From: Candidatus Borkfalkia faecavium
GTDB taxonomy: Bacteria > Bacillota > Clostridia > Christensenellales > Borkfalkiaceae
Reading direction: 5' to 3'
NCBI GenBank assembly: GCA_019114755.1
Contig: DXEW01000033.1
Location: 1 to 42,718, forward strand
Length of the DNA stretch: 42,718 bases
The notes below the pieces were generated by a model. It worked only from the letters and a program-made list of their open reading frames with translations, was not told the origin of the DNA and made no database searches. The position numbers and the translations under genes were made by a program. Below are positions 7,408-27,167 of this stretch, in pieces; the stretch's first letter is position 1; every line of letters begins with the position of its first letter.

Positions 7408-7640
7408 TTCACGAAAATTCTTTTGAGCTGACAAAAGAATTTTCCGTGAGGAAGGGGGAACCCTGCCGTGCGTTGCCGCGCAAAATTGCGCGGCATACTG
7501 GCGGCGGTTTCTCCCCTCTTTTTTTGCCGTTTAGGGGCTCACGTTTTATAAACGGCAAAAAAATTCACCTCCATCCGTATGCTCATAAGGGAAAAGAGGC
7601 AAAAGCGTCGTTTTGCCTCTTTTTCGTATTTGTTTTCAGA
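7408..7640 (+). repeat. hairpin repeat element, copy C
   Basis: This has the same skeleton as copy A, only 30 bases further on. TTCAC is at 7408 and stem 1 pairs GAAAATTCTTTT with AAAAGAATTTTC. Stem 3 pairs TTTTTTGCCGTTT with AAACGGCAAAAAA around the loop AGGGGCTCACGTTTTATAA, followed by TTCAC (about 7563-7568). The final hairpin AGAGGCAAAA/TTTTGCCTCT also recurs near 24637. Confidence 0.7.
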
Positions 7641-7690
7641 GATCCTTCGATGCGCGCGGCTGCACCGCGCTTACTCAGGATGACAGGAAA
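7638..7690. repeat. GATCCTTCG...CAGGATGACA dispersed repeat
   Basis: Conserved ends AGATCCTTCG and CTCAGGATGACAGG surround a variable GC-rich palindromic centre. Other copies are at 241-276, 18971-19023 (inverted) and 37745-37781. Similar short repeats are common between genes in gut bacteria. Confidence 0.75.
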
Positions 7691-17265: not shown

Positions 17266-18648
<1,383 letters not shown>

Positions 18649-18653
18649 GGGAG

Positions 18654-18880
18654 TTCACAAAAACCTCGCCGCGACGGCGGCTGCGGTTTTTCGTGATTTG
18701 AGGACAACCCCGCTGTCCGCGCTTTTAGCGCGGCGCAGCCGGAGTTTTCCTCGGCGGCGCGCTTTTAGGGGCTCACGTTTGATAAACGCGCGCCGCCTTC
18801 ACCTTTCCTGCATGTAGCTCCCCGCTGTAAAGTGAAAAAGCAAAAAGCGCGGTTTTTGCTTTTTCGAGCATTATTTGGAA
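18654..18880 (+). repeat. hairpin repeat element, copy B
   Basis: TTCAC at 18654 opens stem 1 (AAAAACC with GGTTTTT) and CGTGA closes it. GAGGACAAC pairs with GTTTTCCTC around an inner CCGCGC/GCGCGG hairpin. Stem 3 pairs GGCGGCGCG with CGCGCCGCC around the loop AGGGGCTCACGTTTGATAA (18753-18797). TTCAC recurs at 18798-18802. A last hairpin (18833-18865) pairs GAAAAAGCAAAAA with its complement. Confidence 0.7.
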
Positions 18881-18890
18881 TAACAAAGGC

Positions 18891-19023
18891 CTTGCCTTCC
18901 CCCTGGGGGGAAGGTGGCGGCGCAGCCGACGGAAGAGGGGCGTAGGACAATGCGGGAGCGGGCGCCTTCTCCTGTCATCCTGCGGCCGCGCGGGTGTAAC
19001 CCGCGCGCACCGAAGGATCTCTG
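18891..19023. repeat. two dispersed GC-rich repeats
   Basis: The first (18891-18945) is a CTTCCCCCTGGGGGGAAGG palindrome with a GGAAGAGGGGCGTAGG tail that also occurs near 85-100. The second (18971-19023) is an inverted CTGTCATCCTG...CGAAGGATCTCTG repeat. No gene is seen in this interval. Confidence 0.7.
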
Positions 19024-19031
19024 AAAACAAT

Positions 19032-19081
19032 TTCATCCAAAATTTTACATTTTACATTCTACATTTACCATTTACCATTTC
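19032..19081. repeat. AT-rich heptad repeat, single arm
   Basis: Seven-base words of the type TTTTACA and TTCTACA continue into TTTACCA words. It matches one arm of the elements at 7761 and 27057 and lies upstream of plsX. Confidence 0.6.
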
Positions 19082-19166
19082 CCCGCGCGCGCATAAAAAG
19101 AGGCACGCTGCGCAGCGGGCGCGCAAACATGCGGCAAAGCGAACATCAAAAAAGGAGTATTTGTCT

Positions 19167-20195
19167 ATGATCAAGATCGTTGTCGATGCGATGGGGGGCG
19201 ACAATGCCCCGCAGGAGATCGTAAAGGGCGCCGTGCAGGCGCTGCAAAGGGACGCGGAACTTTCGGTGGTGCTCACCGGCGACAAGGCCAAGATCGAGCC
19301 CTGCCTGGCGGGTATGGCGTACGACGCCGCCCGTTTGCAGGTGGTGCACTGCAGCGAGGTCATCACCAATGACGACGTTCCCACCCTCGCCATCCGCCAG
19401 AAGAAGGACTCTTCCCTGGTGGTGGCGCTGAAGATGCTCAAAGAGGACGAAGAGGCGCAGGGCTTCGTGTCCGCGGGTTCCACGGGCGCGGTGCTCACGG
19501 GCGCGTTGCTGCGCGTCGGCCGCATCCGCGGCATTTCCCGCCCCGCCGTCTGCCCGGCGCTGCCCACCGCCAAGGGCGGCAAGGTGTTCATCATCGACGC
19601 CGGCGCCAACGCCGAATGCAAGCCCGTCAATCTGTGCCACTTCGCCATCATGGGCACGGCATATGCCAAGGCGATGGGCGTCAAAGACCCGTGCGTGGGG
19701 CTGGTGACCAACGGCACCGAAGAGCACAAGGGCGACCCGCTCCATCAGGAGACCTTCCACCTTCTGAAAAAGCTGCAGGGCATCCGCTTTGTCGGCAACG
19801 TGGAAGGGCGCGACATCATGAGCGGCGACATCGACGTCGCCGTCTGCGACGGCTTTTCGGGCAACATCGCCCTGAAGACGGCCGAAGGCACGGCGCTGGC
19901 GGTGATGAGCGTCATCAAGCAGAACATCAAATCTTCGCTCGCCGCCAAGATCGGCTATGCCCTGTTCATGCGCGGCGCCTTCAAAAAGATCAAAAAGGTG
20001 CTCGATTACAGCAAATACGGCGGCGCGGTGCTTCTGGGCATTGAAAAGGTGGTCGTCAAGTCGCACGGGTCGAGCAAGGCAGAGAGCATCTGCGCCTCCG
20101 TCCTGCAGGCGAAAGAGGCGGCGGAAAGCGGCCTCGTGGGCGAGATCCGCCAAATGCTGACGGGCATCGACCTGGAGATCGCCCAGGATGCCTGA
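19167..20195 (+). CDS. plsX: Phosphate acyltransferase PlsX
   Basis: Converts acyl-ACP to acyl-phosphate, the first step toward phosphatidic acid in the PlsX/PlsY route. The 342-residue length is normal. The N-terminal signature is IVVDAMGGDNAPQEIVKG, followed by SAGSTGAVLTGALLRVGRI and later VCDGFSGNIALKTAEG. ATG 19167 is preferred to TTG 19161 because AGGAG sits 9 bases before it. The stop overlaps rnc by 8 bases, so translation is coupled. The fab and acpP genes that often lie between plsX and rnc are absent. Confidence 0.96.
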   Translation: MIKIVVDAMGGDNAPQEIVKGAVQALQRDAELSVVLTGDKAKIEPCLAGMAYDAARLQVVHCSEVITNDDVPTLAIRQKKDSSLVVALKMLKEDEEAQGFVSAGSTGAVLTGALLRVGRIRGISRPAVCPALPTAKGGKVFIIDAGANAECKPVNLCHFAIMGTAYAKAMGVKDPCVGLVTNGTEEHKGDPLHQETFHLLKKLQGIRFVGNVEGRDIMSGDIDVAVCDGFSGNIALKTAEGTALAVMSVIKQNIKSSLAAKIGYALFMRGAFKKIKKVLDYSKYGGAVLLGIEKVVVKSHGSSKAESICASVLQAKEAAESGLVGEIRQMLTGIDLEIAQDA

Positions 20196-20838
20196 ACTGC
20201 ATGAAGCGGAACAAAAGCTCGGCTATACCTTTCGCGACAGGCAGCTGCTGGAAGCCTGCTTTACCCACTCTTCGTATGCGGCGCAGCACGGCTGCCAAAG
20301 CAACGAGCGGTTAGAGTTTTTGGGCGACGCCCTGCTCGGCTTTATCGTGGCGGAAGAGCTGTACCGCGGCGGAGAGGCGCCGGAAGGGGAGATGACGCGC
20401 GCGCGCATCCGCATGGTCTCCGCGCCCCCGCTCGCCGCCGCCATCCGCGCCGACGGGCTGGAACGGTTTCTGCGGGCGGCGGATATCCGCAACGTGGGCG
20501 AAAAGGCGGTCTCCAGCCTGTTCGAGGCGCTGGTCGCGGGCATCTATTTAGACGGCGGCATCGCCCCCGCGCGCGCCTTCGTACAGGCGCGGCTGTCCCT
20601 TGCGGGCGAAGACGTCAATCACAAAGGGAAATTACAGGAGTGGCTGCAGGCGCGGCACCTGCCGCGGGCGGAGTATATCCCCCTCGCGCAGACGGGCGAG
20701 CCGCACGCGCCCCGCTTCACCGTGCGGGCGCAGGCCTGCGGTGAGAGTGCGGAAGGGGAAGGCGGCAGTTTGCGCGCCGCGCAGCAGGCGGCGGCAAAAG
20801 AGCTGCTTTTTCGCTTAGAAGAGCGCACGGGAGGATGA
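20188..20838 (+). CDS. rnc: Ribonuclease III
   Basis: Cleaves double-stranded RNA in rRNA maturation and mRNA processing. It is 216 residues, slightly short for the family. The nuclease signature is NERLEFLGDALLGF near residues 46-59, with a second acidic motif in FEALVAGIYLDGG near residue 115. The double-stranded RNA-binding domain begins near DVNHKGKLQEWLQ and ends RAAQQAAAKELLFRLEE. It overlaps plsX and is followed after three bases by smc. Confidence 0.95.
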   Translation: MPELHEAEQKLGYTFRDRQLLEACFTHSSYAAQHGCQSNERLEFLGDALLGFIVAEELYRGGEAPEGEMTRARIRMVSAPPLAAAIRADGLERFLRAADIRNVGEKAVSSLFEALVAGIYLDGGIAPARAFVQARLSLAGEDVNHKGKLQEWLQARHLPRAEYIPLAQTGEPHAPRFTVRAQACGESAEGEGGSLRAAQQAAAKELLFRLEERTGG

Positions 20839-20841
20839 TCG

Positions 20842-23800
20842 GTGCATTTCAAAAAGGTAGAACTCAACGGTTTCAAGTCGTTTGCCGACAAAACCGAGAT
20901 CAAATTCGACGACGGCGTCACCTGTATCGTGGGGCCGAACGGCTGCGGCAAGAGCAACGTTGCCGACGCCATCCGCTGGGTGTTCGGCGAGCAGTCTGCC
21001 AAGACCATGCGCGGCACCAACATGCAGGACGTCATCTTCAACGGCACGCAGGCGCGCAAGAGCCAGTCGTTCTGCGAGGTGACGCTCACCTTCGATAATT
21101 CCACCCACATGTTCGCCGACCTCGACTATGCCGAGGTCGCCATGACCCGCCGCCTCTACCGCAGCGGCGAAAGCGAGTACCTCATCAACAAGCAGCCCTG
21201 CCGCATGAAGGACATCGTAGACCGGCTGCACGCCGTGGGCCTGGGCAAAGAGGGGTATTCCATCATCGGCCAGGGCAAGATCGAACAGATCATGAACGCC
21301 AAGCCCGAAGACCGCCGCTCCATCTTTGAAGAGGCGACGGGCATCGTCGTGTTCAAGGCGCGCCGGCAGGAGATCGAGCGGCGCCTCAACAATTCCTACA
21401 ACAATCTCAACATCTTTTTGCAGCGCATGGGCGAGGTGGAGCACATGCTCGCGCCCCTGTCGCGGCAGGCGGAAAAGGCGCGCCGCTACAACGAGCTGTA
21501 CGGCATGCTCAAACAGGCGGAGATCAACCTCTATATCTATAAGCACGACAATGCCGAGGCCTCCCGCGCCGCCATCGGCGCCGCCATCGCCGCCGTGCAG
21601 GCGGAAATGGAAGAGTGCCGCGCCCGCAGCGAGGCGCTGGAAGCGCAGTGCGCGGCGGACAGGCAGAAGCTCGCCGAAAGCGACGCCGCCCTGCAGCAGC
21701 TCAACGAGCGCATCCTGCAATATACCGTAGAACTGCAAAAAAAGGAGGGCGACGCCAACGTCATCCGCGAGCGCATCGCCTTTTTGCGCCGCCAGCGCGA
21801 GAGCGCCGCCGCCGCCGCTTCCGAAGGGCGGGCGCGCCTTGCCGCCATCGCCAAAGAACTTTCCGCAGCCCAAAAGGCAGCCAAGGCGAACGACGCCAAG
21901 GCGGCCGATTCCCGCCGCGAGATCGCCTCGCTCGAGGGCGAGGTGGCGGAACTTTCCCAAAAGGCGGCGGAGTACGAAGAACTTTCCGACAAGACGCAGC
22001 GCAGCGTCATCGATTCCATCCAGGACCTTTCCGAGATCCGCCGCAACATCGGCACCCTCTCCGCCCGCAAAGAGGCGGTAGAGGAGCGCATCCGCGAAGT
22101 CGCCGCCGCCGCCGAAGAGGCCAAGAGAGACCTCGCCGCGGCGCAGAAGGCGCTTTCCGACTGCGAAGACTGGCAGGCGGAGCTGGACGAGTACGTCTCC
22201 CGCGAGGGGCAGGCGCGCGCCGAGGGAGAGCGGGGGCTGGAGCAGCTGACGCAGGCATTGGAAGAGGCGGGCGAGGCGCTGTTCTCGTGCAATGCCCGCA
22301 TTTCCGCCCTCAAAGACCGCGAGCGCTTTTACCGCAACGTCAAAGAGGAGTTCGAAGGGTATAAATTCGCCGTCCGCAAGCTGATGGGCGACGCCAAAAA
22401 GGACGCCCGCCTGGCGGGGCTGGTGCGCGGCGTCATCGCCGACATCGTCCGCTGCGACGAAAAGTACGAAGTCGCCATCGAAACGGCGTTCGGCGGCGCC
22501 ATGCAGAACGTGGTCACCGCCACCGCAGACGACGCGCGCCTTCTCATCGAGCATTTGAAGCGCACGCGCGGCGGGCAGGTCACCTTTTTGCCCGTCTCCG
22601 CCCTCAAGCCCCGCTACGAGACGGATTATACCAAAAAGGCGCTCAAAGAGGCGGGCGCGGTCGGCCTCGCCACAGAGCTCGTCCGCTACGACAAGTATTA
22701 CGAAAACGTCATCTATAACCTCATCGGCAACACCCTCGTCGCCGATACCATCGCCAACGCCACCGCCATCGCCAAAAAGTACCCGCACGCCTTCCGCATC
22801 GTCACCTTAGACGGCGACGTCATCTCCACGGGCGGGTCGATGACGGGCGGCTCGCGCAAGGAAGGGGGCGGGAACCTGCTCGCCAACGAGCGCAAGATCG
22901 CCGAGGCGCAGAAGGACCTTGCCGCCGCCGAAAAAGAGCGCGCGCAGCTTACACAGCGCCGCGCGCAGCTGGAAGAGAGCCGCACCAAGGCCGCCAAAGA
23001 GCTGGAGACCATGCGCGAAGGGTTTGCCGAAGCGCGCTCCCGCCGCGCCGCCCTGGCCGAAAAGCGCGATACCCTCGCCGCCAAGGCCGCCGAGGGCAAA
23101 AAGGCGCTGAAATTGCAGGAAGACACCCTCGCCGTCCTCTACGAGCGCCTCAAGGGCATCGACACCGATTTTTCCGCCTCTTCGGAAGGGGAAGAACAGA
23201 TCGCCCGCCGCAAAAGCGCCGCCGAGGGCGAGGCGGAGGGCCGCCGCGCCGAATACGAAAAGATCCGCTCCGACCTGGGCGAGCGCAATCTGCGCCTCAA
23301 CGCCCTGCAGGTGTACGTGGCGCAGTACCGCGCCGCGGCGGAGTCTGCCCGCGGCGACGAGGCGCGGCTCGTCTCCGAGCGGGAAGAGCTGGAAGCGCGC
23401 ATTTCTGCCGCCGAAGAGAACGCGGCAAACCTCGCCGAAAACATCGCAGAGCTGGAAAAGCAGGCGGAAGACGCGGCGCTCACCCCCGCCCAGCGGGAAG
23501 AGCTCGCATCCCTTCGCTCCCGCAAAGACGCCGAAACGGAGGGCAAGGCCGCCCTCAACGCCGCCATCGAAGGGGCGCTGCGCGAAACGCGCGCCCTCAC
23601 CGAGCGCAGCGAGGCGCTCTCCGAACAGCGCCACGCCCGCGAGATCGAGCTGACCAGGATCGACACCGAGCTTGAAAACCTGCAGGCGCGCATCGAAGAG
23701 GAATATCACGAAACGTACGAGACCTGCCTGCCCTATAAAGAGGAAGGCTTCGACCCCAAGGCGGGGCAGACGATCCTCAACCGCTGCCGCCGCGAGATCA

Positions 23801-24441
23801 CCGCCCTCGGCGCCATCAACCACAACGCCGTGGAAGAGTACGAGGCGCTCAGCGCCCAGTACAGCGAGATGTGCGCCCAAAGGGACGACGTGCAGCGCGG
23901 CATCGACGATACCTCTTCCGCCCTTGAAAATCTGAAGGCGGAAATGCAGAAGCAGTTCGACGAAGGCTTCAACAGCATCAATCAGAACTTCCAAAAATTG
24001 TTCAAAGAGCTGTTCGGCGGCGGCAAGGCGGAGCTGCAGATGGATTATTCGCTGGCAGACGACCCGCTGTCTGCGGGGGTAGAGATCGTCGCCTGCCCGC
24101 CCGGTAAAAAGCTGACTAAAATTTCGCTGCTTTCGGGCGGCGAGCGGGCGCTCACCGCCATCGCCATCCTCTTCGCTATCCTCATGCTGCGGCCCATGCC
24201 CTTCTGTGTGCTCGACGAAATAGAGGCCGCGCTCGACGAGGCGAACGTCGATAAGTTCGCCCAGTTCTTAAAAAAATTCGCCAAAGAGACGCAGTTCATC
24301 GTCATCACCCACCGCAAGCCCACCATGGAAAAGGCAGACAGCCTCTTCGGCGTCACCATGGAAGAAAAGGGCGTCTCCAAGATCGTCTCTGTCAAGCTGT
24401 CGGAGGTGGAGGCGAAGCTGGGCGGCGATACCGTGGCGTGA
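20842..24441 (+). CDS. smc: Chromosome partition protein SMC
   Basis: The ATPase core of bacterial condensin, acting with ScpA and ScpB. It is 1199 residues with the full architecture. Walker A is GPNGCGKSNV (residues 31-40). The long coiled coil is interrupted by the hinge (about residues 495-670, with FEGYKFAVRKLMGDA and GGSMTGGSRKEGGG at its end). The ABC signature LLSGGERALTAIAILF is near residue 1096 and Walker B FCVLDEIEAALDEAN is near 1120. The GTG start at 20842 follows GGGAGG by 8 bases, three bases after rnc. Confidence 0.97.
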   Translation: MHFKKVELNGFKSFADKTEIKFDDGVTCIVGPNGCGKSNVADAIRWVFGEQSAKTMRGTNMQDVIFNGTQARKSQSFCEVTLTFDNSTHMFADLDYAEVAMTRRLYRSGESEYLINKQPCRMKDIVDRLHAVGLGKEGYSIIGQGKIEQIMNAKPEDRRSIFEEATGIVVFKARRQEIERRLNNSYNNLNIFLQRMGEVEHMLAPLSRQAEKARRYNELYGMLKQAEINLYIYKHDNAEASRAAIGAAIAAVQAEMEECRARSEALEAQCAADRQKLAESDAALQQLNERILQYTVELQKKEGDANVIRERIAFLRRQRESAAAAASEGRARLAAIAKELSAAQKAAKANDAKAADSRREIASLEGEVAELSQKAAEYEELSDKTQRSVIDSIQDLSEIRRNIGTLSARKEAVEERIREVAAAAEEAKRDLAAAQKALSDCEDWQAELDEYVSREGQARAEGERGLEQLTQALEEAGEALFSCNARISALKDRERFYRNVKEEFEGYKFAVRKLMGDAKKDARLAGLVRGVIADIVRCDEKYEVAIETAFGGAMQNVVTATADDARLLIEHLKRTRGGQVTFLPVSALKPRYETDYTKKALKEAGAVGLATELVRYDKYYENVIYNLIGNTLVADTIANATAIAKKYPHAFRIVTLDGDVISTGGSMTGGSRKEGGGNLLANERKIAEAQKDLAAAEKERAQLTQRRAQLEESRTKAAKELETMREGFAEARSRRAALAEKRDTLAAKAAEGKKALKLQEDTLAVLYERLKGIDTDFSASSEGEEQIARRKSAAEGEAEGRRAEYEKIRSDLGERNLRLNALQVYVAQYRAAAESARGDEARLVSEREELEARISAAEENAANLAENIAELEKQAEDAALTPAQREELASLRSRKDAETEGKAALNAAIEGALRETRALTERSEALSEQRHAREIELTRIDTELENLQARIEEEYHETYETCLPYKEEGFDPKAGQTILNRCRREITALGAINHNAVEEYEALSAQYSEMCAQRDDVQRGIDDTSSALENLKAEMQKQFDEGFNSINQNFQKLFKELFGGGKAELQMDYSLADDPLSAGVEIVACPPGKKLTKISLLSGGERALTAIAILFAILMLRPMPFCVLDEIEAALDEANVDKFAQFLKKFAKETQFIVITHRKPTMEKADSLFGVTMEEKGVSKIVSVKLSEVEAKLGGDTVA

Positions 24442-24688: not shown

Positions 24689-24735
24689 AAAATTTTACAT
24701 TCTACATTTTACATTTTACATTCTACATTTTCGCG
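24689..24735. repeat. AT-rich heptad repeat upstream of ftsY
   Basis: A series of TTTTACA/TTCTACA seven-base words, the same as one arm of the elements at 7761 and 27057. It ends about 45 bases before ftsY and may supply A/T-rich upstream sequence. Confidence 0.6.
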
Positions 24736-24778
24736 CGGCGCAGCGCATTTTCAATTCAAAAACAAGGAGGCCATGCAA

Positions 24779-25672
24779 ATGGGCATTTTCGGCAAGATCA
24801 TCGGCGCTTTGAAAAAGACCAAAGACAACATCTCGTCTAAACTTTCGGCGCTGTTTTCGCGAGGCATCGGCGATGATTTTTACGACGAGCTGGAAGAGAT
24901 CCTCATCTCTGCCGACATTTCCGTCGTCACGGCGGAAAACATCGTCGAGCAGATCCGCGAAGAGGCGCGGCGCGAAAAGCTGAAAGACAAAGACTATATC
25001 ATCGACCTCATCAAAGACGTCATCGAAGATACCCTCTGCGAGGCGCCCGTGCCCGAGATCGAGTACCCCGCCGTCATCATGCTGGTGGGCGTCAACGGCG
25101 TGGGCAAGACCACCACCATCGGCAAGCTGGCCAATTACTTCGTCAAAGAAAAGAAGAGCGTCACCCTCGCCGCGGCGGATACCTTCCGCGCCGCCGCCGC
25201 CGACCAGCTGAGCGTGTGGGCGGAGCGGGCAAAGGTGCGCATCGTCAAGCACGAGGAGGGGAGCGACCCTTCCGCCGTGGTGTTCGACGCCCTCTCGTCC
25301 GCCAAGGCCAAGGGCACGGACGTGGTCATCGTCGATACGGCGGGCAGGCTGCACGTCAAGGCCAATTTGATGGCGGAACTGCAGAAGATGGACCGCGTGG
25401 TGGCGCGCGAGTATCCCGAAGCGCACTTCTATAAATTTCTGGTGCTGGACGCCACCACCGGGCAGAACGCCCTCTCGCAGGCGAAGATCTTTGACGAAGC
25501 GGTCGATTTGGACGGCATCGTGCTCACCAAGTTAGACGGCACCGCCAAGGGCGGGTTCGTCGTGTCGCTGTGCGGCGAACTGCACATCCCCGTCGTGTTC
25601 GTCGGCACCGGCGAAAAGATGGACGATCTGCAGCTGTTCGACGCCGAAGAATTCACCGAAGGCATCATTTAG
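24779..25672 (+). CDS. ftsY: Signal recognition particle receptor FtsY
   Basis: The membrane-associated SRP GTPase that receives ribosome-nascent chain complexes from Ffh. It is 297 residues, typical of the short Gram-positive form without the acidic A domain. The P-loop is GVNGVGKTTTIGKLA near residue 103, followed by VIVDTAGRLHVK near 183 and LTKLDGTAKGG near 248. ATG 24779 is chosen because AAGGAGG ends 8 bases before it; the in-frame ATG 24773 lies too close. It is monocistronic, with a terminator after the stop. Confidence 0.97.
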   Translation: MGIFGKIIGALKKTKDNISSKLSALFSRGIGDDFYDELEEILISADISVVTAENIVEQIREEARREKLKDKDYIIDLIKDVIEDTLCEAPVPEIEYPAVIMLVGVNGVGKTTTIGKLANYFVKEKKSVTLAAADTFRAAAADQLSVWAERAKVRIVKHEEGSDPSAVVFDALSSAKAKGTDVVIVDTAGRLHVKANLMAELQKMDRVVAREYPEAHFYKFLVLDATTGQNALSQAKIFDEAVDLDGIVLTKLDGTAKGGFVVSLCGELHIPVVFVGTGEKMDDLQLFDAEEFTEGII

Positions 25673-26654: not shown

Positions 26655-27059
26655 ATGAAAGACATGAAAGATCTGAAGTATTTACAGCTGTTCGACGCCT
26701 ACGGCGCCCTCCTCAACGAGCACCGGCGCGAGGTGTGCGAACTGTACTACCTGTGCGACCTGTCGCTTACAGAGATCGCCGAGCAGAAGGGCATCTCCAA
26801 GCAGAGCGTTTCCGACGCCCTCGCCCAAAGCCGCCGGCTGTTAGACGAGTACGAACAAAAGCTGCACCACAACGAGATCAATCAGCGCGAGTCGCTGGCG
26901 CTGTCTGAAATGCTCACGCGCGTGCTGCGCGCCTTAGAGCAATTCGAGCGCGACCATCCCGAACATGCCGCAGAGATCGAGCGCATCATCTCGCTGATGC
27001 AAATCGATAGCGAGCATTCCGCCGTCATCACCACCCGCGGCGAAGGGGAGAAATTTTAG
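26655..27059 (+). CDS. ylxM: YlxM/p13-like DNA-binding protein
   Basis: A 134-residue protein of the UPF0122 family, which has a sigma-factor region 4-like helix-turn-helix and is commonly found next to ffh. Visible features are YLQLFDAYGALLNEHRREVC and LSLTEIAEQKGISKQSVSD (helix-turn-helix, about residues 36-54), followed by an acidic helical C-terminus. Its linkage to SRP function is based mainly on gene neighbourhood and work in streptococci. ATG 26655 has AGGAGG 8 bases upstream. ffh follows after 169 bases that hold an AT-rich repeat. Confidence 0.9.
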   Translation: MKDMKDLKYLQLFDAYGALLNEHRREVCELYYLCDLSLTEIAEQKGISKQSVSDALAQSRRLLDEYEQKLHHNEINQRESLALSEMLTRVLRALEQFERDHPEHAAEIERIISLMQIDSEHSAVITTRGEGEKF

Positions 27060-27167
27060 AATGTAAAATGTAGAATGTAGAATATAGAATTTTGGAATAG
27101 GCATAAAATATTTTTTAATTTATCGATAATTTTACATTTTACATTTATCATTTTACATTTTCATCCA
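27057..27167. repeat. AT-rich heptad inverted repeat between ylxM and ffh
   Basis: The left arm (about 27060-27090) has ATGTAAA/ATGTAGA words and the right arm (about 27131-27162) has TTTTACA words; the centre is AT-rich. It begins at the ylxM stop codon, so the stop itself may be supplied by the repeat. Confidence 0.65.

Follow-up and report, generated by a model that had tools for sequence, protein, structure and literature searches.

The plsX-rnc-smc run of Candidatus Borkfalkia and the location of its fatty-acid synthesis genes

In Bacillus subtilis, plsX and rnc belong to a plsX-fabD-fabG-acpP-rnc-smc run. In the window, the whole stretch of 42,718 nucleotides of Candidatus Borkfalkia faecavium analysed here, plsX likewise lies upstream of rnc and smc, on one strand and closely packed, but fabD, fabG and acpP are missing from the gap and belong to a separate fab-acc cluster. 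An earlier note on this DNA had proposed that the fatty-acid genes were lost or moved. The question is whether this genome is an exception or whether the arrangement is the usual one of its lineage. The fatty-acid genes turned up at other places of the same genome and this layout is the usual one in the genus, so that the arrangement can be considered ordinary. We are highly confident that the locus is a housekeeping plsX-rnc-smc run of the genus (Candidatus Borkfalkia kin, Christensenellales), probably forming one translationally coupled transcription unit, with the fab-acc genes located separately.

The plsX-rnc-smc run and its surroundings

The plsX gene (19167..20195, + strand, ATG start) encodes a phosphate acyltransferase of 342 aa, which was detected by the NCBIfam profile TIGR00182 (E 1.4e-108) with 363 bits, above the curated cut-off of 243.4. 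It is followed by rnc (20188..20838, + strand, ATG start), encoding a ribonuclease III of 216 aa. The rnc product matched the equivalog profile TIGR02191 (E 5.3e-46, match 8-208) with 156.9 bits, below the curated cut-off of 166.25, and passed the Pfam profiles Ribonuclease_3 (64.2 bits, cut-off 27) and then dsrm (36.7 bits, cut-off 23). By family, it would be an RNase III comprising a catalytic and a double-stranded RNA binding domain. The smc gene (20842..24441, + strand), encoding the chromosome segregation protein, begins with a GTG 3 bases past the rnc stop, and its product matched TIGR02168 (E 5.7e-301) with 1001.4 bits, above the curated cut-off of 567.35. The three genes are thus adjacent, in this order and on one strand. 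They are preceded by asnS (17266..18648, + strand; TIGR00457 and NF003037, both above cut-off), and the next gene downstream of smc is ftsY (24773..25672, + strand; TIGR00064, E 8.4e-104, above cut-off).

Read directly from the sequence, the final 8 bases of plsX, ATGCCTGA (20188..20195, + strand), hold both the ATG of rnc and the stop codon of plsX, which belong to different frames. The 8-base overlap given by the earlier note is exact. With such an overlap there is no room for fabD-fabG-acpP between plsX and rnc, and none of these genes was found there. A hidden acp in or beside the overlap was also ruled out, as there is no room for it and the two acyl carrier protein matches of the genome are on other contigs (C7 and C1). 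The rnc start overlaps plsX in 32 of 34 genomes of the genus when it is placed at the closest start codon that coincides with or precedes the beginning of the rnc match, starts internal to the match being left aside. In L017 and L031, the two exceptions, this codon lies just past the plsX stop. The note had further described the remaining genes as tightly coupled. Their packing is indeed tight, and the conserved overlap, together with the spacing, suggests that plsX, rnc and smc are probably co-transcribed and translationally coupled. The three genes would then constitute one transcription unit, in which ribosomes ending plsX would help to initiate rnc at the overlapping ATG.

Possible transcription signals were looked for in positions 18600-21000 with a consensus scan. 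Two promoter-like matches, for 0.3 expected, were detected upstream of plsX at 19044-19078, both lying within a seven-base repeat. Terminator-like matches numbered 8 for 3.4 expected; they are consensus matches only and include a stem in the asnS-plsX interval (18833-18866) and two + strand matches within rnc, at 20320-20339 and 20790-20807. These last two argue mildly against a single unbroken plsX-rnc-smc transcript.

The seven-base repeat (ATTTTAC and variants) forms short head-to-tail arrays ahead of plsX (19042-19072), in the smc-ftsY interval (24692-24731) and at two further places of the window (27057-27090 and 27129-27161). A pattern derived from these same arrays gave 13 matches in the window and none in shuffled sequences. 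Genome-wide, it gave 134 matches (at most 1 mismatch, overlapping registers counted) versus 72 for the reversed pattern, a control that nearly coincides with the repeat read in a shifted register. Another word, CGAAGGATCTCTG, occurs at 19011-19023 and 7637-7649 of the window, and also upstream of the acp of the fab cluster described below. It was matched 5 times (at most 2 mismatches) for 0.99 expected, a number reached by 1 of 100 shuffles.

Location of the fatty-acid synthesis genes

The acpP and fab genes that the note suggested locating in the rest of the genome were found on two contigs. On C1, they form a run ordered fabZ-fabH-acp-fabK-fabD-fabG-fabF-accB-accC-accD-accA. Seven of these genes exceeded their curated cut-offs: fabH (L034:5493-6455), the enoyl reductase gene fabK (L034:7342-8283), fabG (L034:9188-9928), fabF (L034:10347-11579), accB (L034:11830-12297), accC (L034:12316-13662) and accD (L034:13697-14800). 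For accA (L034:14797-15561), a subfamily model was passed (328 bits for a cut-off of 300) but TIGR00513 was missed (309.9 versus 319.3). The three others remained below: fabZ (L034:4826-5251; 100.2 bits, cut-off 113), acp (L034:7095-7322, + strand; 45.9 bits, cut-off 66) and fabD (L034:8271-9107; 204.1 bits, cut-off 260.9). One FabF and one FabD, both on C1, were detected in the genome, together with four FabG-family matches, the C1 FabG alone scoring above the cut-off. The gene set for type II fatty-acid synthesis (fabZ, fabH, acp, fabK, fabD, fabG, fabF and acc) is thus present, and the idea that this genome had lost the pathway can be rejected. After accA, a DegV-family gene (L034:15680-16495) scored 193.6 bits with the DegV model (cut-off 99.7) and 105.4 bits with that of the fatty-acid-binding FakB1, below its cut-off of 350.

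The second acyl carrier protein match, on C7, is a solitary and canonical acp (L033:9316-9543, - strand; 84 bits, cut-off 70.45) located beside tex. It adjoins tex, recognised from its Tex domains by a domain scan, in the six genus genomes that were read, our genome included. The acp inside the fab cluster, present in the four genomes read (again including our own), is more divergent than the one beside tex.

The fab-acc run was also found in the three other genus genomes fetched (G015, G031 and G026); fabF of G031 is seen as two overlapping frames, and the stretch of G015 cuts accA. Among the 37 genus drafts, FabF was matched in 33 and FabD in 34. Neither was matched in G025 (74% complete) and G033 (81%), so that our evidence for the cluster does not extend to the whole genus.

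Stand-alone fab-acc clusters with FabK occur in streptococci and many clostridia. The C1 cluster resembles them by grouping fabH-acp-fabK-fabD-fabG-fabF and the acc genes in one run, and differs from them in being led by fabZ. In the other members of the order whose cluster was read, fabZ lies between accB and accC (G037, G052, G057 and G060) or after fabF (G040 and G056), and the stretch of G058 ends before fabZ.

Gene order from the genus to the phylum

The genus was sampled with 37 genomes, our own and 36 others; every searched genome of family f1 belongs to this genus (g1). All are draft assemblies, our own being 89.88% complete, and the neighbour calls were seeded from the genome of the window, so that a very divergent gene could escape them. 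Three genomes were left aside, one having no plsX match (G017) and two ending at a contig edge (G008 and G024). In the 34 resolvable genomes, rnc systematically comes directly after plsX, the distance from the end of plsX to the start of the rnc match ranging from -8 to 52 bases. It is followed by smc in 33 of the 34 loci with rnc, G018 being cut inside rnc, and asnS was matched at 30 of 36 plsX loci. Comparing the PlsX protein with named genomes gave 44 loci, the best being records of uncultured Firmicutes or Clostridia at 85-89% identity. Five Candidatus Borkfalkia species, a genus that NCBI places in Christensenellales, come next, with a PlsX 80-84% identical to that of the window, and the genus sampled here comprises named Candidatus Borkfalkia species.

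The order was sampled with 26 genomes: 24 family representatives, one per family, and two genomes of one more family. We excluded from the tallies a second plsX of G047 (L065), repeat fetches within the genus (L066-L072) and a further copy of our own locus (L165). Direct plsX-rnc and plsX-acp-rnc were found in 12 genomes each, and neither in the remaining two. One of these, G054, has no listed gene within the 1974 bases read after plsX. In the other, G045 (L064), the next gene after plsX is smc, some 190 bases on, without an rnc match in the interval, and it differs in this from the other 24 order members with a recognised next gene. No fab gene other than acp, and in particular no fabD or fabG, was seen between plsX and rnc in the 26 genomes (nothing being recognised in G054). 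The window shares with the plsX-acp-rnc run of the order the close packing of plsX and rnc on one strand; it differs from it in lacking acp in the gap and having a solitary acp beside tex instead.

Outside the order, the class was sampled with 59 genomes of at least 90% completeness. Of these, 49 have plsX, 46 of them outside the order; plsX gave no match at E <= 0.001 in the other 10. The gene next to plsX in the 46 genomes is fabH (25), acp (13), rnc (5), fabD (2) or unrecognised (1). In 59 further genomes of the phylum, it is fabH (44), acp (7), fabD (2), rnc (2) or fabK (1), with nothing within 600 bases of plsX in 3. Considering adjacency to plsX only, a fab gene is thus present in 27/46 class and 47/59 phylum genomes (74/105 combined), the commonest being fabH and not fabD. 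Fab genes bracketed by plsX and rnc in one run were seen in two loci only, G136 (plsX-fabD-fabG-acp-fabF-rnc) and G069 (plsX-fabD-acp-rnc), because the sequence read past plsX was in most cases too short to include rnc. The statement that fabD, fabG and acpP often lie between plsX and rnc in Firmicutes therefore holds for fab genes in the vicinity of plsX, which are mostly fabH, and was borne out in the bracketed form at these two loci.

These counts bear on a first alternative, according to which plsX and rnc were formerly separated by fabD, fabG and acpP, later lost or moved, this genome being a derived exception. The frequent fab neighbours of plsX in class and phylum, the two bracketed runs and the acp kept in 12/26 order genomes speak for it. 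Against it stand the direct plsX-rnc junction of all 34 resolvable genus genomes, the absence of fabD and fabG from this spot in the 26 order genomes and the fact that the genome retains these genes, its fab-acc cluster with an acp on C1 being complete and complemented by the second acp on C7. We consider this alternative rather unlikely. One part of it survives: acp alone may have moved in an ancestor of the genus, since in about half of the order plsX and rnc are separated by an acp.

Against the reading of the note, direct plsX-rnc is thus standard at the level of the genus, the part of family f1 covered here, and one of two common states in the order. The plsX-rnc pair is an ordinary, lineage-wide arrangement. 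Among the literature matches listed, the titles and first lines of abstracts held no description of the plsX-rnc-smc layout, which is no proof of its absence.

Apparently patchy fatty-acid synthesis in the order

We also compared the fatty-acid genes of the 24 other family representatives (G037-G060). All 24 have plsX (that of G059, matched in two pieces, was scored as present) and an acyl carrier protein match. G047 contains a second and more divergent plsX match (L065, on G047:C58), 39% identical and located away from the first. FabF was detected above noise in 7 of the 24 (G037, G040, G052, G056, G057, where it is split, G058 and G060) and FabD in the same 7. In the 17 others, neither was found above noise; G042, G044 and G050 exhibit weak FabF matches only (E 1e-5 to 7e-4). 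Two further order genomes, G064 and G098, also gave no FabF. Of the 17, G042 is 51% and G047 86% complete, and the other 15 are at 90-100%. In the genus, FabF is missing from 4 of 37 drafts, of 74-85% completeness; at such a rate, incomplete drafts would not by themselves account for 17 out of 24. Type II fatty-acid synthesis thus seems to be lacking in many families of the order, which retain PlsX and a carrier protein, a combination consistent with the use of external fatty acids.

Such a distribution could be extended to the genus itself, whose ancestor would have lost type II fatty-acid synthesis and regained a fab-acc cluster with its acp, hence the distance of the fab genes from plsX and the two acyl carrier proteins. 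The 17 families without FabD and FabF are in line with this scenario. So is the position of acp, which adjoins plsX in six of the seven families having FabD and FabF but not in the genus of the window or in G052; the association is nevertheless loose, as acp has the same neighbour in 6 of the 17 families that lack FabF. A quick FabF tree of 51 rows was built, with six rows for the genus; 28 of the 33 other genus genomes (no row chosen or split FabF), as well as G057 (split and short, removed by the length filter), G066 and G077 (both split), are not included. The sequences of the order are scattered among those of the class, and the starred branches force at least two changes. However, 16 of its 48 forks are open, and the genus FabF falls near those of two order families, G037 and G058, in a 14-row group (support 92, not starred). 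With this grouping, plain inheritance combined with repeated loss elsewhere fits equally well. The tree is thus compatible with either a horizontal origin or an inheritance of the genus cluster, both being possible, and we regard loss followed by regain as unlikely.

We therefore retain the ordinary housekeeping run. The gene order, the overlap and its conservation, as well as where the fab genes lie, are direct observations, and the roles that follow are assigned by family. PlsX would convert acyl-ACP into acyl-phosphate for phospholipid synthesis, RNase III would cut double-stranded RNA and SMC would compact the chromosome, the three genes being neighbours by inheritance rather than by pathway. 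The enzymes of fatty-acid synthesis and one of the two acyl carrier proteins would be supplied by the separate fab-acc cluster, and the second carrier by the gene beside tex. As the layout is lineage-wide and does not result from a loss, no special metabolism has to be assumed for this genome.

At the scale of the order, a broader idea can be put forward, which we hold to be unlikely as it stands: most of the order would have given up fatty-acid synthesis and would live on the fatty acids of its surroundings through PlsX and a carrier protein, and the genus would have kept or regained a fab-acc cluster with its own carrier, the solitary second carrier serving lipid assembly. If this were true, many uncultured clostridia of the order would need fatty acids from outside, a requirement bearing on their culturing.
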